A stretch of DNA of 64,000 bases, taken from assembly GCA_949285135.1 (NCBI GenBank), contig CASDXO010000013.1:1-64000 (forward strand). The letters are read 5' to 3'. Numbering within the stretch: the first letter of the stretch is position 1; every line of letters starts with the position of its first letter. Origin of the DNA: an uncultured Phascolarctobacterium sp. GTDB lineage: Bacteria > Bacillota > Negativicutes > Acidaminococcales > Acidaminococcaceae. A program made the position numbers and the translations under genes. The notes beneath the pieces were generated by a model that saw nothing but the letters and a program-made list of their open reading frames with translations, had not been told where the DNA came from and searched no databases. Below, in pieces: positions 49,618 through 56,853 of the stretch.

Positions 49618-50652
49618 ATGAAAAAATCTAAATGGGTTTTAGGTGCTGCTGCTTTACTGGCTTTGTCTGTAGCTGTTGCTGGCTGCGGCGGTGATGACAA
49701 GAAAGCTGACAGCGGTAAAGGCGGTCCTTCCGGAGAAGTAATGGTTTATACTTCCATTTATCCGGATATCATCGACAATATGTGCAAACCTAATGTTGCC
49801 AAAGCCTTTCCCAATATGAAAGTAAACTGGTTCCAGGGCGGTACTGAAAAAGTAATCACCAAGATTACCGGTGAAATTAAAGCTAAAAAGATTTCTGCTG
49901 ATGCTCTGATGGTTGCAGATCCGTCCTATTATCTGAAACTTGACGAACAGAAACTGCTGTTGCCGTATGTTTCTCCTGAAGCAAAGAACGTTATCAGTGA
50001 TAAAGATAAGGAAGGAGCATGGACTGCTGTTCGTATCAGCAACATGATTATTGCCTATAATTCCGATAAACTGAAACCGGAAGATGCTCCTAAGACCTGG
50101 CAAGACCTGACCGATCCGAAATGGAAAGGCAAAATTGCCATGCCTAATCCGATGCTTTCCGGTACTGCTTATGTTGCAGTAGGAGCATTGGCTGACAAAT
50201 ACGGCTGGGAATATTTTGACAAGCTGAAAGCAAACGACATCCGTGTTGAAGAAGGCAACTCCGCTATCCAGAATAAACTGCTGACTGGCGAATACGCTGC
50301 AGCTATGATTTTGGAAGAAAATATCCTGAAACTTGCCAATACTAAGAATGAACCTTTGAAAGTATCCTATCCTGAAGACGGTGTAGTAATGGTTCCGTCT
50401 CCGATTGCTATTTTCAATACTACCAAGAATCCGGAAGGTGCCAAAGCACTGGTTGACTGGTGGTTGTCCAAAGAAGGCCAGGAAGCCGTTGTTAAAGGCT
50501 GGATGCACTCTGTACGCGGAGATGTTCCGGCTCCGAAAGGTGCTCCTGAAACTAAGAAACTGGTAGAAGGCGCAATCAAGGTTGACTGGCAGAAACTTGC
50601 CAATAATAACGCTGAAATTAAGGAAGAATTCCGTAAGAGAGTTATGGAATAA
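49618..50652 (+). CDS. ABC transporter substrate-binding lipoprotein, Fe(III) type
   Basis: Lipoprotein of 344 residues with lipobox VAGC at residues ~19-22. The mature domain (VMVYTSIYPDIIDNM...) is of the type-2 periplasmic binding fold used by Fe(III), spermidine and phosphonate importers. LTGEYAAAMILEENIL and SPIAIFNTTKNPEGAKALV are shared features of the iron-type group. AAAGGAG precedes ATG 49618. First gene of a three-gene importer; the actual ligand is not proven. Confidence 0.85.
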   Translation: MKKSKWVLGAAALLALSVAVAGCGGDDKKADSGKGGPSGEVMVYTSIYPDIIDNMCKPNVAKAFPNMKVNWFQGGTEKVITKITGEIKAKKISADALMVADPSYYLKLDEQKLLLPYVSPEAKNVISDKDKEGAWTAVRISNMIIAYNSDKLKPEDAPKTWQDLTDPKWKGKIAMPNPMLSGTAYVAVGALADKYGWEYFDKLKANDIRVEEGNSAIQNKLLTGEYAAAMILEENILKLANTKNEPLKVSYPEDGVVMVPSPIAIFNTTKNPEGAKALVDWWLSKEGQEAVVKGWMHSVRGDVPAPKGAPETKKLVEGAIKVDWQKLANNNAEIKEEFRKRVME

Positions 50653-50689
50653 GCTGCCGTTAATCAATTTCAGAAATGATATTATGGAG

Positions 50690-50723
50690 AAAAACAGGGG
50701 CGTTTAGACGTTCCCTGTTTTTC
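50690..50723 (+). terminator. Hairpin between binding-protein and permease genes
   Basis: aaaaacaggg / ccctgttttt with inner gcgt / acgt. It is probably a partial terminator or mRNA stabiliser that raises binding-protein yield over the permease. Confidence 0.6.
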
Positions 50724-50787
50724 CTGTGTTATAAAAGTATGTATTGATTCACCTGATTTATGTACAGAAAGGAGTTTTTTGTGATTT

Positions 50788-52455
50788 ATGGGAAGAATTA
50801 ACAGTAAATTCTTGGTCATTGCGTTTTCCGTATTGATGCTGATCTATTTTGTAATATTCCCGATGGGTGTGCTGCTGTATGACAGCATTATCTATAACGG
50901 CAGTATTAATTTTGAAAATTATCGCAACGTGTACAGTCAGGATGTTAACTGGCGTGCACTTACCAATACAATCAATTTGTCGCTTTTAGTAATGGTTGCC
51001 AGTGTCATCATTACTTTCCCCCTTGCCTGGCTGGTAGGTCGTACTGATATGCCCGGTAAAAAGACTTATCGTACTTTGCTGGTGTCCAGCTACATGATTC
51101 CGCCGTATGTTGGTGCCATTGCCTGGGTGCAGCTGCTGAATCCCAGCGTCGGCTATATGAATAATATTTTCAAGTGGATGTTTGATTTGCAGCAGGCTCC
51201 TTTTGATATTTATACCATGGGCGGTCTGGCATGGGTGTTAACGCTGTTTTATTCTCCTTTTGCCTTTATTACTATTTCCCGCGCAATGGAGAAAATGGAT
51301 CCAACTTTGGAAGAAGCAGCACGTGTGTCCGGTGCTTCTCCGCTGCGTACGCTGCTTGACGTTACTTTACCGTTGATGGCCCCCAGTATCTTTGCCGGCG
51401 GCCTGCTGGTATTCATTGCGGCCGGCAGCTGCTTCGGTATTCCTGCTATCGTTGGTATGCCGGGCAATATTGAGGTTATGACTACCCGTATTGTAACCTA
51501 TATCTATATGGGCGACGTGGATGGTGTCCGTGATGCTACGGCACTGGCTGCTTCGCTGATGTTTCTGGCAAATTTCCTGCTGTTCTTTATGACCTGGGTT
51601 GTCGGACGCAAGGATTATACTACTATCAGCGGTAAGAGTACCCGTCCGAATATTGTCGAACTGGGCAAATGGAAATGGCCTGCTTTCTGTGCCGTAGGTG
51701 CCTACAGCATGATTTCCGTTATTATTCCGCTGGGTTCCATCGTGCTGACCTCTCTTATTAAGAGCTTATCCCGTCCCATCAATCTGGATAATCTGGGCTT
51801 TGATGCCTGGATTCCCGTTATTACCAGTTCCCAGTATATGGAAAGTATTTGGAATTCTGTTATTTACGCAGTTATTGCTGCTACTATCGGTACGCTGCTG
51901 TCGTTGTTTGTGGCTTACCTGGCAGTTAAAACTCATGTTAAAGGCCGCAGCATACCTGACTTGCTGACCGTTATCGGCGGCAGTACTCCGAGTATCGTTA
52001 TTGCTCTGGCACTGGTTGTTACCTTCTCCGGTAATTTTGGCCTGAACCTGTATTCCACTATGTGGATACTGGTAGTCAGCTATCTGGTAAAATATATGAC
52101 TATGTCCGTACGTACTATTGCCGCTTCTCTGAGTCAGGTACATATTTCTCTGGAAGAAGCTGCACTTAATTCCGGTGCTAACTGGCTGAGGTGCTGCAAG
52201 GACATCATCATGCCGCTTATTGCTCCGTCAATTATTGCCGGCTGGTTCCTGATTTTTATGCCGTCTTTCTACGAACTGACCATGTCATTGCTTTTGTACG
52301 GCAGCGATACTAAGACTATCGGCGTACTGCTGTATGAACTGCAGACTTATGCAGATACGCAGAATGCTTCCGTATTGTCGGTAATTATTCTGGCTATCGT
52401 TTTAATCGGTAACCTGATTCTTAACAAACTGAGCAAGGGTAATGTTGGTATTTAA
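50788..52455 (+). CDS. ABC transporter permease, Fe(III) type (two permease domains)
   Basis: Inner-membrane protein of 555 residues with about twelve helices in two halves, the FbpB layout. Each half carries an EAA loop: EEAARVSGASPLRTLLDVTLP (first 20 residues of that loop are typical) and EEAALNSGANWLRCCKDIIM. The second half begins after the linker TTISGKSTRPNIVELGKWKW. It lies 16 bases before the ATPase gene. Confidence 0.9.
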   Translation: MGRINSKFLVIAFSVLMLIYFVIFPMGVLLYDSIIYNGSINFENYRNVYSQDVNWRALTNTINLSLLVMVASVIITFPLAWLVGRTDMPGKKTYRTLLVSSYMIPPYVGAIAWVQLLNPSVGYMNNIFKWMFDLQQAPFDIYTMGGLAWVLTLFYSPFAFITISRAMEKMDPTLEEAARVSGASPLRTLLDVTLPLMAPSIFAGGLLVFIAAGSCFGIPAIVGMPGNIEVMTTRIVTYIYMGDVDGVRDATALAASLMFLANFLLFFMTWVVGRKDYTTISGKSTRPNIVELGKWKWPAFCAVGAYSMISVIIPLGSIVLTSLIKSLSRPINLDNLGFDAWIPVITSSQYMESIWNSVIYAVIAATIGTLLSLFVAYLAVKTHVKGRSIPDLLTVIGGSTPSIVIALALVVTFSGNFGLNLYSTMWILVVSYLVKYMTMSVRTIAASLSQVHISLEEAALNSGANWLRCCKDIIMPLIAPSIIAGWFLIFMPSFYELTMSLLLYGSDTKTIGVLLYELQTYADTQNASVLSVIILAIVLIGNLILNKLSKGNVGI

Positions 52456-52471
52456 CGAAGGAGTGTAATCT

Positions 52472-53518
52472 ATGTCTGAAGTACGTATTGAACATGTTTA
52501 TAAAAGATTTGGCAAAGTAACTGCTGTTAATGATTTTGACCTTGTCGTGAAAGATGGTGAGTTTGTATCCATCCTTGGTCCTTCCGGCTGTGGTAAGACT
52601 ACGACTCTGCGTATGATTGCCGGTTTTGAGCGTGCTACGGAAGGTGAGATTTATATTGGGGATGCCTGCGTAAGCTCTTCTGTGCAGGGCAGTTTTACCC
52701 CGCCGGAAAAACGCGATATCGGCATGGTATTCCAGTCCTATGCCGTATGGCCACATATGACGGTTGAAGAAAATGTTGCTTATCCGCTGAAAATTCAAAA
52801 AGTACCCAAAGAAGAAAGAATGAAACGCGTTCAGGAAATGCTGGAGCTGGTACATCTGGGTGAATACGGCAAGCGTTATCCTCACCAGTTGTCCGGTGGT
52901 CAGCAGCAGCGTGTGGCTCTGGCACGTGCATTGGTTGCTCAGCCTGGCCTTTTACTGCTTGACGAACCTCTGTCCAATCTGGATGCCAAGTTGCGTGAAA
53001 GCATGCGTTTTGAAATTCTGTCTATCCAGAAGAAGCTGGGTATTACCGTTGTCTATGTAACCCATGATCAGAGCGAAGCCATGGCAATGAGCGACCGTGT
53101 CGTTGTTATGAGTAAAGGCGTTGTACAGCAGATCGGTGCTCCCCATGAAATTTATACTACACCGGCTAATAAGATGGTTGCTGACTTTATCGGCCTGGTT
53201 AACTTCATGGACGGTGAAGTCAAGGGTGACCGTGTCTTTATCAAAGGCACTGATATTTCCTTTGCCAATACTGCCAATGTCAGTGGTGCAGCCGTTATTG
53301 CCGTACGTCCGGAAAATATTACCATGTCCCTTGACGGCGGTTTAATTAAAGGTGTGCTGACACATCGTTTCTATCTTGGCGATGCTGTTGATTACCGTAT
53401 CAAAGTTGGCGACCATGATGTGCGTGTTATTGAAAAAGGCGCTGATTTACACAAATTTAAAGACGGTGATACCGTATATCTTGATTTTGAACGGGTTATG
53501 ATTTTTGGCCGTGACTGA
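52472..53518 (+). CDS. ABC transporter ATP-binding protein, Fe(III)/spermidine type
   Basis: ATPase of 348 residues. Walker A is GPSGCGKTT, the signature LSGGQQQRVALARAL, and Walker B LLLDEPLSNLDAKLRE. A C-terminal TOBE regulatory domain occupies ~residues 240-345. Family: PotA/FbpC. GAAGGAG precedes the ATG. A strong terminator follows, closing the importer operon. Confidence 0.93.
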   Translation: MSEVRIEHVYKRFGKVTAVNDFDLVVKDGEFVSILGPSGCGKTTTLRMIAGFERATEGEIYIGDACVSSSVQGSFTPPEKRDIGMVFQSYAVWPHMTVEENVAYPLKIQKVPKEERMKRVQEMLELVHLGEYGKRYPHQLSGGQQQRVALARALVAQPGLLLLDEPLSNLDAKLRESMRFEILSIQKKLGITVVYVTHDQSEAMAMSDRVVVMSKGVVQQIGAPHEIYTTPANKMVADFIGLVNFMDGEVKGDRVFIKGTDISFANTANVSGAAVIAVRPENITMSLDGGLIKGVLTHRFYLGDAVDYRIKVGDHDVRVIEKGADLHKFKDGDTVYLDFERVMIFGRD

Positions 53519-53525
53519 TAACAGC

Positions 53526-53565
53526 AAAATCCGTAAAGGCTTTACTGCCTTTACGGATTTTTTTA
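53526..53565 (+). terminator. Terminator after the importer operon
   Basis: Perfect 14-base stem aaatccgtaaaggc / gcctttacggattt with T run. Confidence 0.94.
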
Positions 53566-53629
53566 TGCGCCAACGTTTACCGTGCCGGAAGATTTTATTA
53601 CGGTAATAAACACAAGCTGTCTGTACGTA

Positions 53630-53638
53630 TGCTATAAT
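53630..53638 (+). promoter_or_regulatory. Extended -10 promoter of the lyase unit
   Basis: TGC-TATAAT at 53630-53638 with no good -35 box. A 7-base inverted repeat ttaccgt / acggtaa (53577-53606) lies upstream. Confidence 0.5.
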
Positions 53639-53664
53639 TGAGACAGAAAGGCGGATGTAAATAT

Positions 53665-54675
53665 ATGCGAAATTTTATTATAGCCGTTCTGTTGCTGTTA
53701 ATTATGGCTGCGACAGGTTGCGGCAGTCATAAAGAGGAGCAGCGAGAGCTGAATATCTGCTGCAGTATGGAAAGTAAGGTTGCTGCACTGCTGGCAGAAG
53801 ATTTTACTGAACGCACGGGCATAAAGGTTAATATTAGCCGTTTGCCCGCTGGCTCGTTTAATGAACGTATGGAATTTATCAGAAAGAATAATATTGACTG
53901 CTGGCTGGGTGGTACTGTTGAAGAATATTACCTTGCCAGTCAGCAGAATCTGCTGCAGCCATATCTTGCGGCAGAAGCGTATAAGGTACCGGCAGCAATG
54001 CGCAGCAAAGAAGGTTACTGGACAAGCCTGTACCTGGAATATGTCGCTTTTATCAGCAATAAAGAGCGTCTGCATGAACTGGGACTTTATGCACCTGACA
54101 CCTGCGGCGAGCTTTTGAAACCACAGCTGCAAGGAGAGATTGTGGTTCCTGATTATATTTATGGCGGCGCCAGCTATGGTCTTGTAACATCTATCTGGCA
54201 GCTGCAGGGAAGAGAACAGGCTTTAAAATACGCTGCTGCACTTAACAGGCAGCAGGTTACCTATACTGATCATGTCAGCGATGCTGTAGATATGGTATAT
54301 TCCGGGCAGAAAACAGTGGCGGTTTTGCCCCTCAGGTATGCGCTGAAACTGGAAGAACGCTACAATCACCTTTTTGCTACCGTGGTAGAAGATGCTAACA
54401 GAAATTTGCTGACAGGAGCGGCTGTTATCAGCAGCAGTAAACATCAGGAGGAAGCTCGCAGCTTTTTGGATTATCTTATGAGTGATGAAAGTATGCTGGT
54501 GCTGCAGAACAACGGTTACAGGTATTTGTGGCATGTTAAGGATTATCCGCACAATAATCTGCGCAAGGAGCTGCTGGGTAATGTACAGGTGCCCGTAGAT
54601 GATCTGAGCTGGACGGCAGTAGAAAAAAATGAAATCATCAGGCAATGGCTGAGTGCCGGAACGGAGGAGAAATAA
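53665..54675 (+). CDS. Second substrate-binding lipoprotein, Fe(III) type
   Basis: Lipoprotein of 336 residues with lipobox ATGC (residues ~16-19). The binding fold begins ELNICCSMESKVAALLAEDF and includes NNIDCWLGGTVEEYYLAS and NRQQVTYTDHVSDAVDMVYS, as in AfuA/FbpA-like proteins. It has no permease of its own and may feed the importer just upstream. Start ATG 53665 (AAAGGCGGATG upstream). Its TAA overlaps the lyase ATG by one base (TAATG). Confidence 0.85.
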   Translation: MRNFIIAVLLLLIMAATGCGSHKEEQRELNICCSMESKVAALLAEDFTERTGIKVNISRLPAGSFNERMEFIRKNNIDCWLGGTVEEYYLASQQNLLQPYLAAEAYKVPAAMRSKEGYWTSLYLEYVAFISNKERLHELGLYAPDTCGELLKPQLQGEIVVPDYIYGGASYGLVTSIWQLQGREQALKYAAALNRQQVTYTDHVSDAVDMVYSGQKTVAVLPLRYALKLEERYNHLFATVVEDANRNLLTGAAVISSSKHQEEARSFLDYLMSDESMLVLQNNGYRYLWHVKDYPHNNLRKELLGNVQVPVDDLSWTAVEKNEIIRQWLSAGTEEK

Positions 54676-56174
54676 TGCTGAAAAAACTTGGTGTTTTAAC
54701 GCTGCTGGCGCTGTTGACGGCAAATACTGCTGCGGCAGACAGCGGACAGAAAGACAGCTTTTACTGGCTGGGGCAGATTAACAAGGCCACAGCTGTTATC
54801 AACACGCAGCAGGGTTTGCTGACCAGGGAGCAGGGCCAAAGATTTGCCAGAAGTATTGAACAGGTGCTGGAAGATGGGGAAAAGAAAAACGGACCGCGGC
54901 CTAATTTAGTAATAACTTTTGAACCGCTGCTGATTAAAGCTTATGGCAGTGAAGAAATTACCATGCTGCACGCAGGACGTTCCAGTCAGGATATGCTCAG
55001 CACGGTAAATTTTGCCATGAGCAGGCAGCAGGCACTTGAACTTGCTGAAGCATTGAATAAGATGCAGGGAACGCTGCTCAAACTGGCGGCTGAGCAGCAG
55101 AAGACGATTATTCCCAATTATACCAACGGAGTAGCAGCGCAGCCTAACAGCCTGGGACATTATCTGCTGGGGTATGCGTATGCTTTCGGGCGCGATGCTC
55201 AGAGACTGCAGCAGTATTATACCAGACTGAATCGCTCTCCTATGGGTGCTACCGTGCTTAATGGTACAGGTTGGCCGTTAAACCGTGAGAAAATGGCAGA
55301 TTATCTTGGCTTTGATACGATTGCCTATAATACTTATGATGCAGGGCAGATCTATACCTCAGAAAATGCCGCCGATGCTGCAGCGGTAACAGGTAATATT
55401 GCGCTGCATATCAGCAGCTTTATTGAAGAAATTATGCAGCAGTATGCTCAGCCGCGGCCCTGGATTATTTTGCAGGAGGGCGGCGGCAATACCTATGTAT
55501 CAAGTGCCATGCCTCAAAAGCGTAATCCTGGCATTCTGAACAATGCAAGACGTGATGCATCCATACTGCTGGGAGAAGGAACTGCAGCTCTGTTCAGGGC
55601 ACATAATATCCCGGCAGGGATGCCGGACGGAAGAACAGGTGCAGAAGCATTGCTCGAAAATGCAACGAAGCTGGTACAAAATTTTGACCATATTTTACAG
55701 GCGTTGGTAATTGACCCTGAACGCAGTCTGGAGGAACTGAATCTGGACTGGACCTGCTCACAGGAAATTGCTGACGTGATGATGCGTAAATACAACATTC
55801 CTTTCCGGACAGGTCATCATTTTGCGTCGGAAATAGTTACCTATGCCCGTAAAAATAATATTACTCCCTCTGATTTTTCCTATGAAGATGCCAGGAACAT
55901 CTATCGGCAGATAGCTGCAGGTGATGCAGATATTCCGGCAGAGCTGCCGCTGAGCAGACAGGAATTCAGGGCGGCTCTTGATCCGGCCGCTATTGTTGCC
56001 GCACGGGCAGTAAAAGGTGGCCCGCAGCCGGCAGAAATGACAGAAATGCTGCAGCAGTGTAACAGGGTGCTGGAGAAAAATGAAGTGTGGACGGCTGCTG
56101 CCGTAAAGCGTCAGCAGGAAGCGGAGAAAAAACTGGAAAAAGACTTTGCATCCTTGCTGCAAACGGAACAATAA
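54675..56174 (+). CDS. Exported argininosuccinate-lyase-like protein (fumarase/aspartase superfamily)
   Basis: Protein of 499 residues. A Sec signal peptide covers residues 1-22 (KKLGVLTLLALLTANTAAA). The rest follows argininosuccinate lyase: HAGRSSQDM (ASL HTARSRNDQ), NYTNGVAAQP (ASL GYTHLQRAQP) and the superfamily signature SSAMPQKRNPG (ASL GSSIMPQKKNP). The catalytic-loop Ser is kept (about Ser276), but the His of GYTH is Asn151 and the Asn of SRNDQ is Gln. The reaction is therefore probably a related beta-elimination or none. EDDS lyase, which cleaves a metal-chelating aminopolycarboxylate, is in the same subgroup. Coupled to a binding lipoprotein; GGAGGAG precedes the ATG. Confidence 0.82.
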   Translation: MLKKLGVLTLLALLTANTAAADSGQKDSFYWLGQINKATAVINTQQGLLTREQGQRFARSIEQVLEDGEKKNGPRPNLVITFEPLLIKAYGSEEITMLHAGRSSQDMLSTVNFAMSRQQALELAEALNKMQGTLLKLAAEQQKTIIPNYTNGVAAQPNSLGHYLLGYAYAFGRDAQRLQQYYTRLNRSPMGATVLNGTGWPLNREKMADYLGFDTIAYNTYDAGQIYTSENAADAAAVTGNIALHISSFIEEIMQQYAQPRPWIILQEGGGNTYVSSAMPQKRNPGILNNARRDASILLGEGTAALFRAHNIPAGMPDGRTGAEALLENATKLVQNFDHILQALVIDPERSLEELNLDWTCSQEIADVMMRKYNIPFRTGHHFASEIVTYARKNNITPSDFSYEDARNIYRQIAAGDADIPAELPLSRQEFRAALDPAAIVAARAVKGGPQPAEMTEMLQQCNRVLEKNEVWTAAAVKRQQEAEKKLEKDFASLLQTEQ

Positions 56175-56175
56175 G

Positions 56176-56210
56176 AAAAGCCCTTTCGGTTTGTACCGAA
56201 AGGGCTTTGT
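56176..56210. terminator. Bidirectional terminator
   Basis: Stem aaagccctttcggt / accgaaagggcttt between convergent genes. Confidence 0.9.
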
Positions 56211-56215
56211 AAGTT

Positions 56216-56554
56216 TTAGACCATTTTATGTTTGACGTGATCCAAAGCCTGAGCAAAAAGAGTCAGAACATGTTCGTCATCCAGTGAATAGATGACTTCT
56301 TTGCCATCTTTAGTGTACTTAACAAGATTGGCAGAACGCAGCAGACGCAGTTGATGGGAAATTGCCGAATGGGTCATGTTCAGTGCTTCTGCTATACAGC
56401 TTACGCAGAGTTCCTGCTGTGCCAGCAGCGCCAGAATTCGGATGCGCGTAGGGTCGCTTAATACTTTGAAGATGGCCGCCATCGGCATGATATATTTTTC
56501 ATTTTCATGGCCCGGAAGCGGGAGAGAGGTTGTGTGCCGTGAAGAAGTAGTCAT
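56216..56554 (-). CDS. ArsR/SmtB-family regulator with alpha-5 zinc site
   Basis: Protein of 112 residues. Winged helix: VLSDPTRIRILALL...MTHSAISHQLRLLRSA. The last helix has Asp-x-His, ten residues, His-x-x-His (DEHVLTLFAQALDHVKH), the alpha-5 ligand set of zinc/cobalt sensors such as CzrA and SmtB. The alpha-3 ELCVxD motif reads ELCVSC. Start at 56554, behind AGGTGA, five bases after the upstream stop. Third gene of the thiW operon, which it may regulate. Confidence 0.9.
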   Translation of the reverse strand: MTTSSRHTTSLPLPGHENEKYIMPMAAIFKVLSDPTRIRILALLAQQELCVSCIAEALNMTHSAISHQLRLLRSANLVKYTKDGKEVIYSLDDEHVLTLFAQALDHVKHKMV

Positions 56555-56559
56555 AAAGT

Positions 56560-56853
56560 TCACCTGTTTTTAATATATGTTCTGTAACCCTGAGAAAAAA
56601 AGTAAATCAGTACTGCGCAGTAGAAAAAGCCGCCAATGGGTGTTCTGGTGATGAACCAGGCCGGAAAAACAAAAAAACAGACAAGTAAGAACAGCAGCTG
56701 CGGCAGAGTTGTTATCAGGCCGCCAATACCGGATGCAGCAACACGTTCCTTGATTTTCAGACAGGAAAGTACGCTGTAGCGGGAGGCAAAAATACCGAAG
56801 CAAAAACCGCTGAGTGCATATAAGATATAATTTATCAGAGTGCCGATATCCAT
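56560..56853 (-). CDS. Small membrane protein in the thiW operon
   Basis: Protein of 97 residues with three hydrophobic segments (NYILYALSGFCFGIFAS, GGLITTLPQLLFLLVCFFVF and GGFFYCAVLIYFFSQG). No family recognised. It starts one base after the thiW stop and ends five bases before the ArsR start, so it sits between a transport component and its probable regulator. It may be an accessory of the transporter. Confidence 0.7.
   Translation of the reverse strand: MDIGTLINYILYALSGFCFGIFASRYSVLSCLKIKERVAASGIGGLITTLPQLLFLLVCFFVFPAWFITRTPIGGFFYCAVLIYFFSQGYRTYIKNR

Follow-up and report, generated by a model that had tools for sequence, protein, structure and literature searches.

The window, that is, the whole stretch of 64,000 nucleotides analysed here, carries the genes of an ABC importer, a second solute-binding lipoprotein (SBP2), a lyase-like protein (xASL) and a convergent ArsR-type regulator (Table 1). 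A sequence-only reading of this DNA had described a lyase-like open reading frame at 54675 with the full argininosuccinate-lyase layout, an SSAMPQKRNPG loop, an asparagine (Asn151) in place of the histidine of the GYTH motif, and a one-base overlap with the lipoprotein gene. All of these were recovered: the layout corresponds to the Pfam domains Lyase_1 and ASL_C2, the loop and the asparagine codon lie where Table 1 places them, and the last base of the lipoprotein TAA is the first base of the ATG at 54675, an overlap from which cotranslation of SBP2 and xASL is possible.

Table 1. Features of the importer, SBP2 and xASL region (positions in the window)
Feature	Position	Strand	Basis or remark
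SBP1, solute-binding lipoprotein of the ABC importer	49618..50652	+	
Fused double permease of the ABC importer	50788..52455	+	
ATPase of the ABC importer	52472..53518	+	
Terminator-like hairpin between the ATPase gene and SBP2	53527..53560	+	dG -23.7 kcal/mol, z -6.6
SBP2, solute-binding lipoprotein, second binding protein of the upstream importer locus	53665..54675	+	Pfam SBP_bac_6/11
xASL, predicted exported argininosuccinate/EDDS-lyase-like protein, 499 aa	54675..56174	+	Pfam PF00206 and PF14698, PDB sequence matches, AlphaFold2, Foldseek
Signal peptide, Sec-type, codons 1-21, cleavage predicted between AAA and D	54675..54737	+	Sequence, hydropathy table against cytosolic relatives, low pLDDT
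GRSSQD, residues 101-106, in place of GRSRND of ASL/EDDS lyase	54975..54992	+	29/29 xASL members
Asn151, at the site of the catalytic His of ASL (duck H162) and of EDDS lyase Gln159	55125..55127	+	
SSAMPQKRNPG catalytic signature loop, residues 276-286, with the putative catalytic-base serines	55500..55532	+	
Terminator-like hairpin between xASL and the convergent ArsR gene, bidirectional use possible	56177..56208	.	
ArsR-type regulator	56216..56563	-	

Domains, fold, pocket and predicted export of xASL

Regarding its domain content, xASL matched Lyase_1 (7.8e-28; 98.2 bits against a cut-off of 27) and ASL_C2 (4.5e-11), and it fell below all the curated NCBIfam cut-offs, with 196.6 bits for the argH model TIGR00838 against the 279.5 required. 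EDDS lyase (6rx8/6g3d) gave the best matches in a PDB sequence search. The dN/dS ratio was 0.065-0.108 between the window and its sister species, and 0.04-0.09 for other pairs; xASL is far beyond chance, because this ratio comes together with 20 close relatives in species genomes. A canonical argG-argH is present elsewhere in the window's genome, separate from xASL.

As for the fold, the AlphaFold2 model of the monomer (27 aligned sequences) had a mean pLDDT of 88.1 and a pTM of 0.87, and it was poorly defined at the N-terminus only, with low pLDDT at residues 1-4 and 13-23; in the fumarase/aspartase superfamily, the active sites form between subunits. The model has the mostly helical fold of the superfamily, and Foldseek ranked EDDS lyase first (TM 0.84-0.86), followed by argininosuccinate lyases and delta crystallins. 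EDDS lyase, which the sequence-only reading had chosen as the nearest characterised relative, therefore leads both the sequence and the structure searches, and the structure comparison that it had suggested returned an argininosuccinate/EDDS-lyase-type fold, with TM up to 0.86 to EDDS lyase.

The residues T150, S276, S277, K282, N284 and D106 were invariant in 29 of 29 xASL members, as was the motif SSAMPQKRNP. Equally fixed (29/29) were S104, Q105, N151, G286 and M316, which stand at the places of R112, N113, Q159, D290 and Y320 of EDDS lyase; these five and N288 lie 4-6 Å from the substrate in that enzyme (PMC12363623), and N288 (N284 in xASL) is the only one of the six that is kept. The earlier remark that other substrate-site residues are altered thus extends to five positions fixed across the whole family. 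The counterpart of N151 in duck delta-2 crystallin is His162, and the title of the PDB entry 1DCN describes H162N as an inactive mutant with argininosuccinate bound. In the argH residue test, both the catalytic histidine of the TH motif and GRSRND proved to be replaced (N151 and GRSSQD, 29/29); in addition, the NPD aspartate is a glycine in xASL. GRSSQD, YTNG, KRNPG and the NxxxGM loop together serve as diagnostic residues of xASL. Argininosuccinate is an unlikely substrate, because N151 matches the inactive duck variant and the genome has its own argG-argH; EDDS lyase is active with Gln159, so Asn151 argues against argininosuccinate more than against catalysis. With five substrate-site positions of EDDS lyase changed throughout the family, xASL may act on something other than an N-substituted aspartate.

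Regarding export, the N-terminus of xASL, MLKKLGVLTLLALLTANTAAA and then, after the predicted cleavage point, DSG, combines a K-K n-region with a hydrophobic core of 10 residues (mean Kyte-Doolittle 2.77) and cleavage sites of the AxA type. The Sec signal peptide claimed by the sequence-only reading was predicted in the window protein and in 26 of 29 members overall, from Negativicutes and from Alpha- and Betaproteobacteria, by heuristics of hydropathy, charge and AxA sites and not by SignalP or another trained predictor; in the same hydropathy comparison, none was found in seven cytosolic relatives or in the genome's own ArgH. The ten-residue hydropathy maximum was 1.6-3.4 in the 26 signalled members; ArgH, the seven distant relatives and the three members without a signal ranged from -0.5 to 1.6. 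The signalled stretch precedes the conserved xASL core, D-x-F-x-W-L-G-Q/E-I-N-K-A. Three members (L067, L068 and L069) have no signal peptide, therefore the export trait was lost or gained inside the family. Upstream of L067 there are a DcuC-type C4-dicarboxylate carrier, in this one case only, and a LysR regulator; in L068 and L069, a superoxide dismutase is encoded upstream and an AAA/VWA pair downstream.

A phrase search of the literature for argininosuccinate lyases described as periplasmic, exported or secreted gave no match. Three "argininosuccinate lyases" of Achromobacter xylosoxidans are predicted Tat substrates and were detected by proteomics in periplasmic fractions, for which cytosolic contamination is also reported (PMC11533796); likened to xASL by annotation and location alone, they may be independent support for exported lyases.

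Distribution and gene neighbourhoods

When species genomes were scanned, 20 relatives of xASL turned up, with identities of 58-84%; their labels are Phascolarctobacterium, Succiniclasticum ruminis, Schwartzia, Dialister succinatiphilus and rumen or gut Acidaminococcaceae/Selenomonadales. By profile scan, xASL occurred in 33 of 380 Negativicutes genomes; it is present in 20 of the 59 genomes of the window's family, and among 398 genomes spread evenly over the phylum the scan matched just one distant relative besides the genome of the window. Proteobacterial members were sampled through plasmids only: 14 of 72,556 plasmid records matched at 50-58% identity (Agrobacterium, Comamonadaceae, Caballeronia, Cupriavidus metallidurans, Pseudoroseomonas and Paracoccus), and the next best reached at most 31%. 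In Cupriavidus metallidurans CH34, the xASL gene is on the megaplasmid. In the maximum-likelihood tree, a long stem with 100/100 support unites the 29 members and separates them from EDDS lyase, the seven cytosolic relatives and the genome's own ArgH; EDDS lyase falls among those relatives on long branches, which make the order outside the xASL group unsure. Judged from these sequences, xASL is a discrete clade inside the argininosuccinate/EDDS-lyase branch and a distinct, conserved family, mostly with predicted export, common to the gut bacterium and soil proteobacteria. The xASL of the window's genus joins a Schwartzia (Selenomonadaceae) sequence (99/97) and not most of its own family, which is compatible with horizontal acquisition. 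One homologue (L070:2225-3376, genome G359) lies in several alignment pieces with frame breaks and resembles a decayed copy.

The xASL gene is usually solitary on its strand or near unrelated genes. Conserved neighbours gave no clue to the substrate: the close neighbours tested, identified by Pfam, were mutually unrelated, and they encode a metallo-hydrolase, an adenine deaminase-like protein, a succinyl-CoA ligase, a serine dehydratase, an autotransporter, an ArsP permease and a transposase. The adenine deaminase-like gene, 21 bp downstream of xASL in L063, is the single instance bearing on a purine (succinyladenosine) reading. In L058:8802-18979 (genome G036), a locus identical with L006, about 1.2 kb separate xASL from a downstream series of apparent argC, J, B, D, F and G genes followed by an argH-like gene on the same strand, with an opposite-strand transglycosylase gene between; it is the sole arg-adjacent case among the loci examined.

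The distant lyase relatives are placed otherwise: at 26-31% identity, five of the six that are annotated lie in ABC importer operons of assorted types, as does the distant Bacillota relative L073. The cluster of the latter (L073:3819-14874, genome G716) comprises a ROK regulator, an ATPase, a fused permease, a BadF/NAGK-like kinase, a solute-binding protein and a PIG-L-type deacetylase, and a similar ROK/PIG-L/ABC/kinase set is found in Aminobacter (L085); this gene content suggests an amino-sugar conjugate as the substrate there.

As for genes that might handle fumarate, flavocytochrome c fumarate reductase (TIGR01813) was absent from all 59 family genomes, and periplasmic fumarate respiration, looked for through this model alone, was set aside as unsupported. 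DcuA/B occurred in 6 of the 59 genomes, only two of them xASL carriers; fumarate uptake by DcuA/B, not tracking xASL, was also rejected.

SBP2, whose lipobox-like motif is ATGCGS, has homologues in 45 of the 59 family genomes. In several relatives (G036, G025, G026, G024, G037, G038, G039, G014 and G044) it lies directly behind the importer ATPase gene without an adjoining xASL, and the order SBP1-permease-ATPase-SBP2 was found wherever a longer stretch was read. In G037 and G038, SBP2 abuts ArsR with nothing between, that is, the site is empty; the longer stretch read in G037 has QueT-like, CoA-transferase and M48 genes after ArsR, as in the window, and the xASL of G037 is on a different contig from its SBP2. 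In genus g5 (L060 and L061), SBP2 abuts ArsR as well, and xASL is about 2.4 kb away on the same strand. Adjacency of SBP2 and xASL was found only in the window's genus (the window and L001/L072), and the simplest reading is that xASL was inserted there between SBP2 and ArsR.

Two claims of the sequence-only reading do not survive this comparison. It had described a lipoprotein with no permease; SBP2 is normally part of the importer locus, directly behind the permease and ATPase genes in most relatives examined, therefore it does have one. It had also proposed a lipoprotein-lyase pair that captures and cleaves a substrate, to be sought in relatives; the adjacency is not conserved, and the two genes differ in spread (45/59 for SBP2 and 20/59 for xASL). 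The candidate partnership was rejected on family-wide gene order and the empty site: with xASL inserted behind the SBP2 of an unrelated importer locus, the lipoprotein is probably not its partner. Finally, the "iron-type" label of the importer stands only as a broad one, because the closest NCBIfam models, with scores below cut-off, belong to the putative 2-aminoethylphosphonate set phnS2/PhnU2/PhnT2 and the best solved relatives of SBP2 are mixed, namely 6wce (a PLP-binding protein) and 4r72 (deposited as an Fe3+-type component, which we take to be the sugar-phosphate binder AfuA).

Between the window and the sister species (window 49618-54675), SBP2 and xASL are 81-84% identical, and SBP1, permease and ATPase 97-98%; thus, the second binding protein evolves much faster than its importer. 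In L105:12024-14797 (genome G028), SBP2 is beside ArsR without the usual importer genes, and a different permease/ATPase pair, 34-48% identical, lies past the M48 gene.

Candidate function and comparison with known systems

The reading we prefer, and to which we give an even chance, is that xASL is an exported C-N lyase of the EDDS-lyase-like branch, with its gene inserted at this locus and SBP2 a neighbour that is not its partner. A working C-N lyase is suggested by the low dN/dS, the confident model (pLDDT 88) and EDDS lyase as the top structural match. After Sec export and signal cleavage, xASL would fold in the periplasm and assemble the usual tetramer of the superfamily; a loop serine, S276 or S277 of SSAMPQKRNP, would act as the base, and fumarate would be eliminated from an N-(1,2-dicarboxyethyl) compound (an N-substituted aspartate), giving fumarate and an amine that would be taken up separately. 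Our best guess is that, outside the cytoplasm, xASL would release fumarate from an N-(1,2-dicarboxyethyl) amine; a chelator as substrate would be a guess. In the cytosolic relatives, the conjugate would be imported by a dedicated ABC transporter and then cleaved, whereas with xASL cleavage would come first; this opposition of import-then-cleave and cleave-then-import is suggested by relatives within ABC operons and a solitary xASL.

Among the rival explanations, it is unlikely that xASL is a non-catalytic descendant, similar to delta-1 crystallin, that would be exported and use the lyase scaffold for binding or in a structural role: the whole family has changes at several substrate-site residues and an asparagine where the catalytic histidine used to be, but the signature loop is invariant (29/29) over two phyla, dN/dS is low, and EDDS lyase also functions in the absence of that histidine. 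A little less probable is cleavage of a C-S or C-O bond in a fumarate adduct (a succinated thiol, mercaptosuccinate or a malyl ether) and not of a C-N bond; the pocket differs from that of ASL and from that of EDDS lyase, and NCBIfam gives the branch a weak tie to the bacterial coenzyme M synthesis proteins XcbC and XcbD. Moreover, the "putative argininosuccinate lyase" MIM_c16970 of Advenella mimigardefordensis, likened to xASL by annotation alone, is 6.4-fold higher on mercaptosuccinate than on succinate (PMC5373536); however, it may be an ordinary ArgH, mercaptosuccinate breakdown is assigned to a dioxygenase in the same work, and the closest structural relatives found for xASL are C-N lyases.

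The functional pair, in which the lipoprotein and the exported lyase would capture and cleave, or bind, a chelator or conjugate and feed the adjacent importer, is very unlikely. The one-base overlap in the window, the close, same-strand placement of the two genes in both species of the genus and the 2.4 kb spacing in genus g5 speak for it; against it, SBP2 follows the same ABC operon without xASL in most relatives, it is no neighbour of xASL elsewhere, its junction with ArsR is empty in two genomes, and the grouping of the window xASL with Schwartzia suggests acquisition. Least probable of all is a periplasmic argininosuccinate lyase scavenging external arginine and fumarate: the ASL family domains and the arginine cluster of L058 agree with it, but the argH score is far below cut-off, N151 reproduces the inactive duck variant, GRSRND and the NPD aspartate are replaced, and arginine genes adjoin no other xASL locus examined.

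Within an enzyme class that is viewed as cytosolic and whose members are annotated as arginine biosynthesis, xASL forms a conserved clade with predicted export and fixed pocket residues of its own, so that the "argininosuccinate lyase" annotations of these proteins are probably wrong. If active, xASL would release fumarate outside the cytoplasm in gut and rumen bacteria; its named carriers include Succiniclasticum ruminis and Dialister succinatiphilus, both known for living on succinate. A false lead is also removed, as the neighbouring lipoprotein should not be used for guessing the xASL substrate. The wider proposal is tentative, and in our judgement would sooner fail than hold: xASL would be the founder of a family of lyases that release fumarate in the periplasm from a new substrate, the cleave-first counterpart of the ABC-linked cytosolic lyases, shared horizontally between succinate fermenters of gut and rumen and soil proteobacteria.

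Among known systems, EDDS lyase of Chelativorans sp. BNC1 (PDB 6G3D-6G3I, 6RX8) has in common with xASL the fold, the GTGWPLNR motif, the loop S-S-x-M-P-Q-K-K/R-N-P and a missing catalytic histidine; it differs in being cytosolic, in its ~25% identity, in the five pocket positions changed to S, Q, N, G and M, and in its place in the tree. ArgH and delta-crystallin share the two Pfam domains and the superfamily signature loop with xASL, which differs in its sub-cut-off score for the argH equivalog, in the changes TH to TN and GRSRND to GRSSQD, in its predicted export and in the separate argG-argH of its genome. The ABC-linked, argH-annotated plasmid lyases (Aminobacter, Roseibium, Geminicoccaceae, Terrarubrum and Variovorax; 26-31% identity) have the broad branch and the catalytic loop in common with xASL, but they have no signal peptide, retain the TH motif and lie inside ABC importer operons. 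The Achromobacter xylosoxidans proteins A0A0D6FWL1, A0A0D6I447 and A0A0D6IQY6 (PMC11533796) resemble xASL, as far as their description goes, in being predicted to be exported (by Tat); they were detected in periplasmic fractions. Finally, SBP2 is a relative of the AfuA/P5PA-type solute-binding proteins (4R72 and 6WCE, the latter named for pyridoxal-5-phosphate binding) by sequence.
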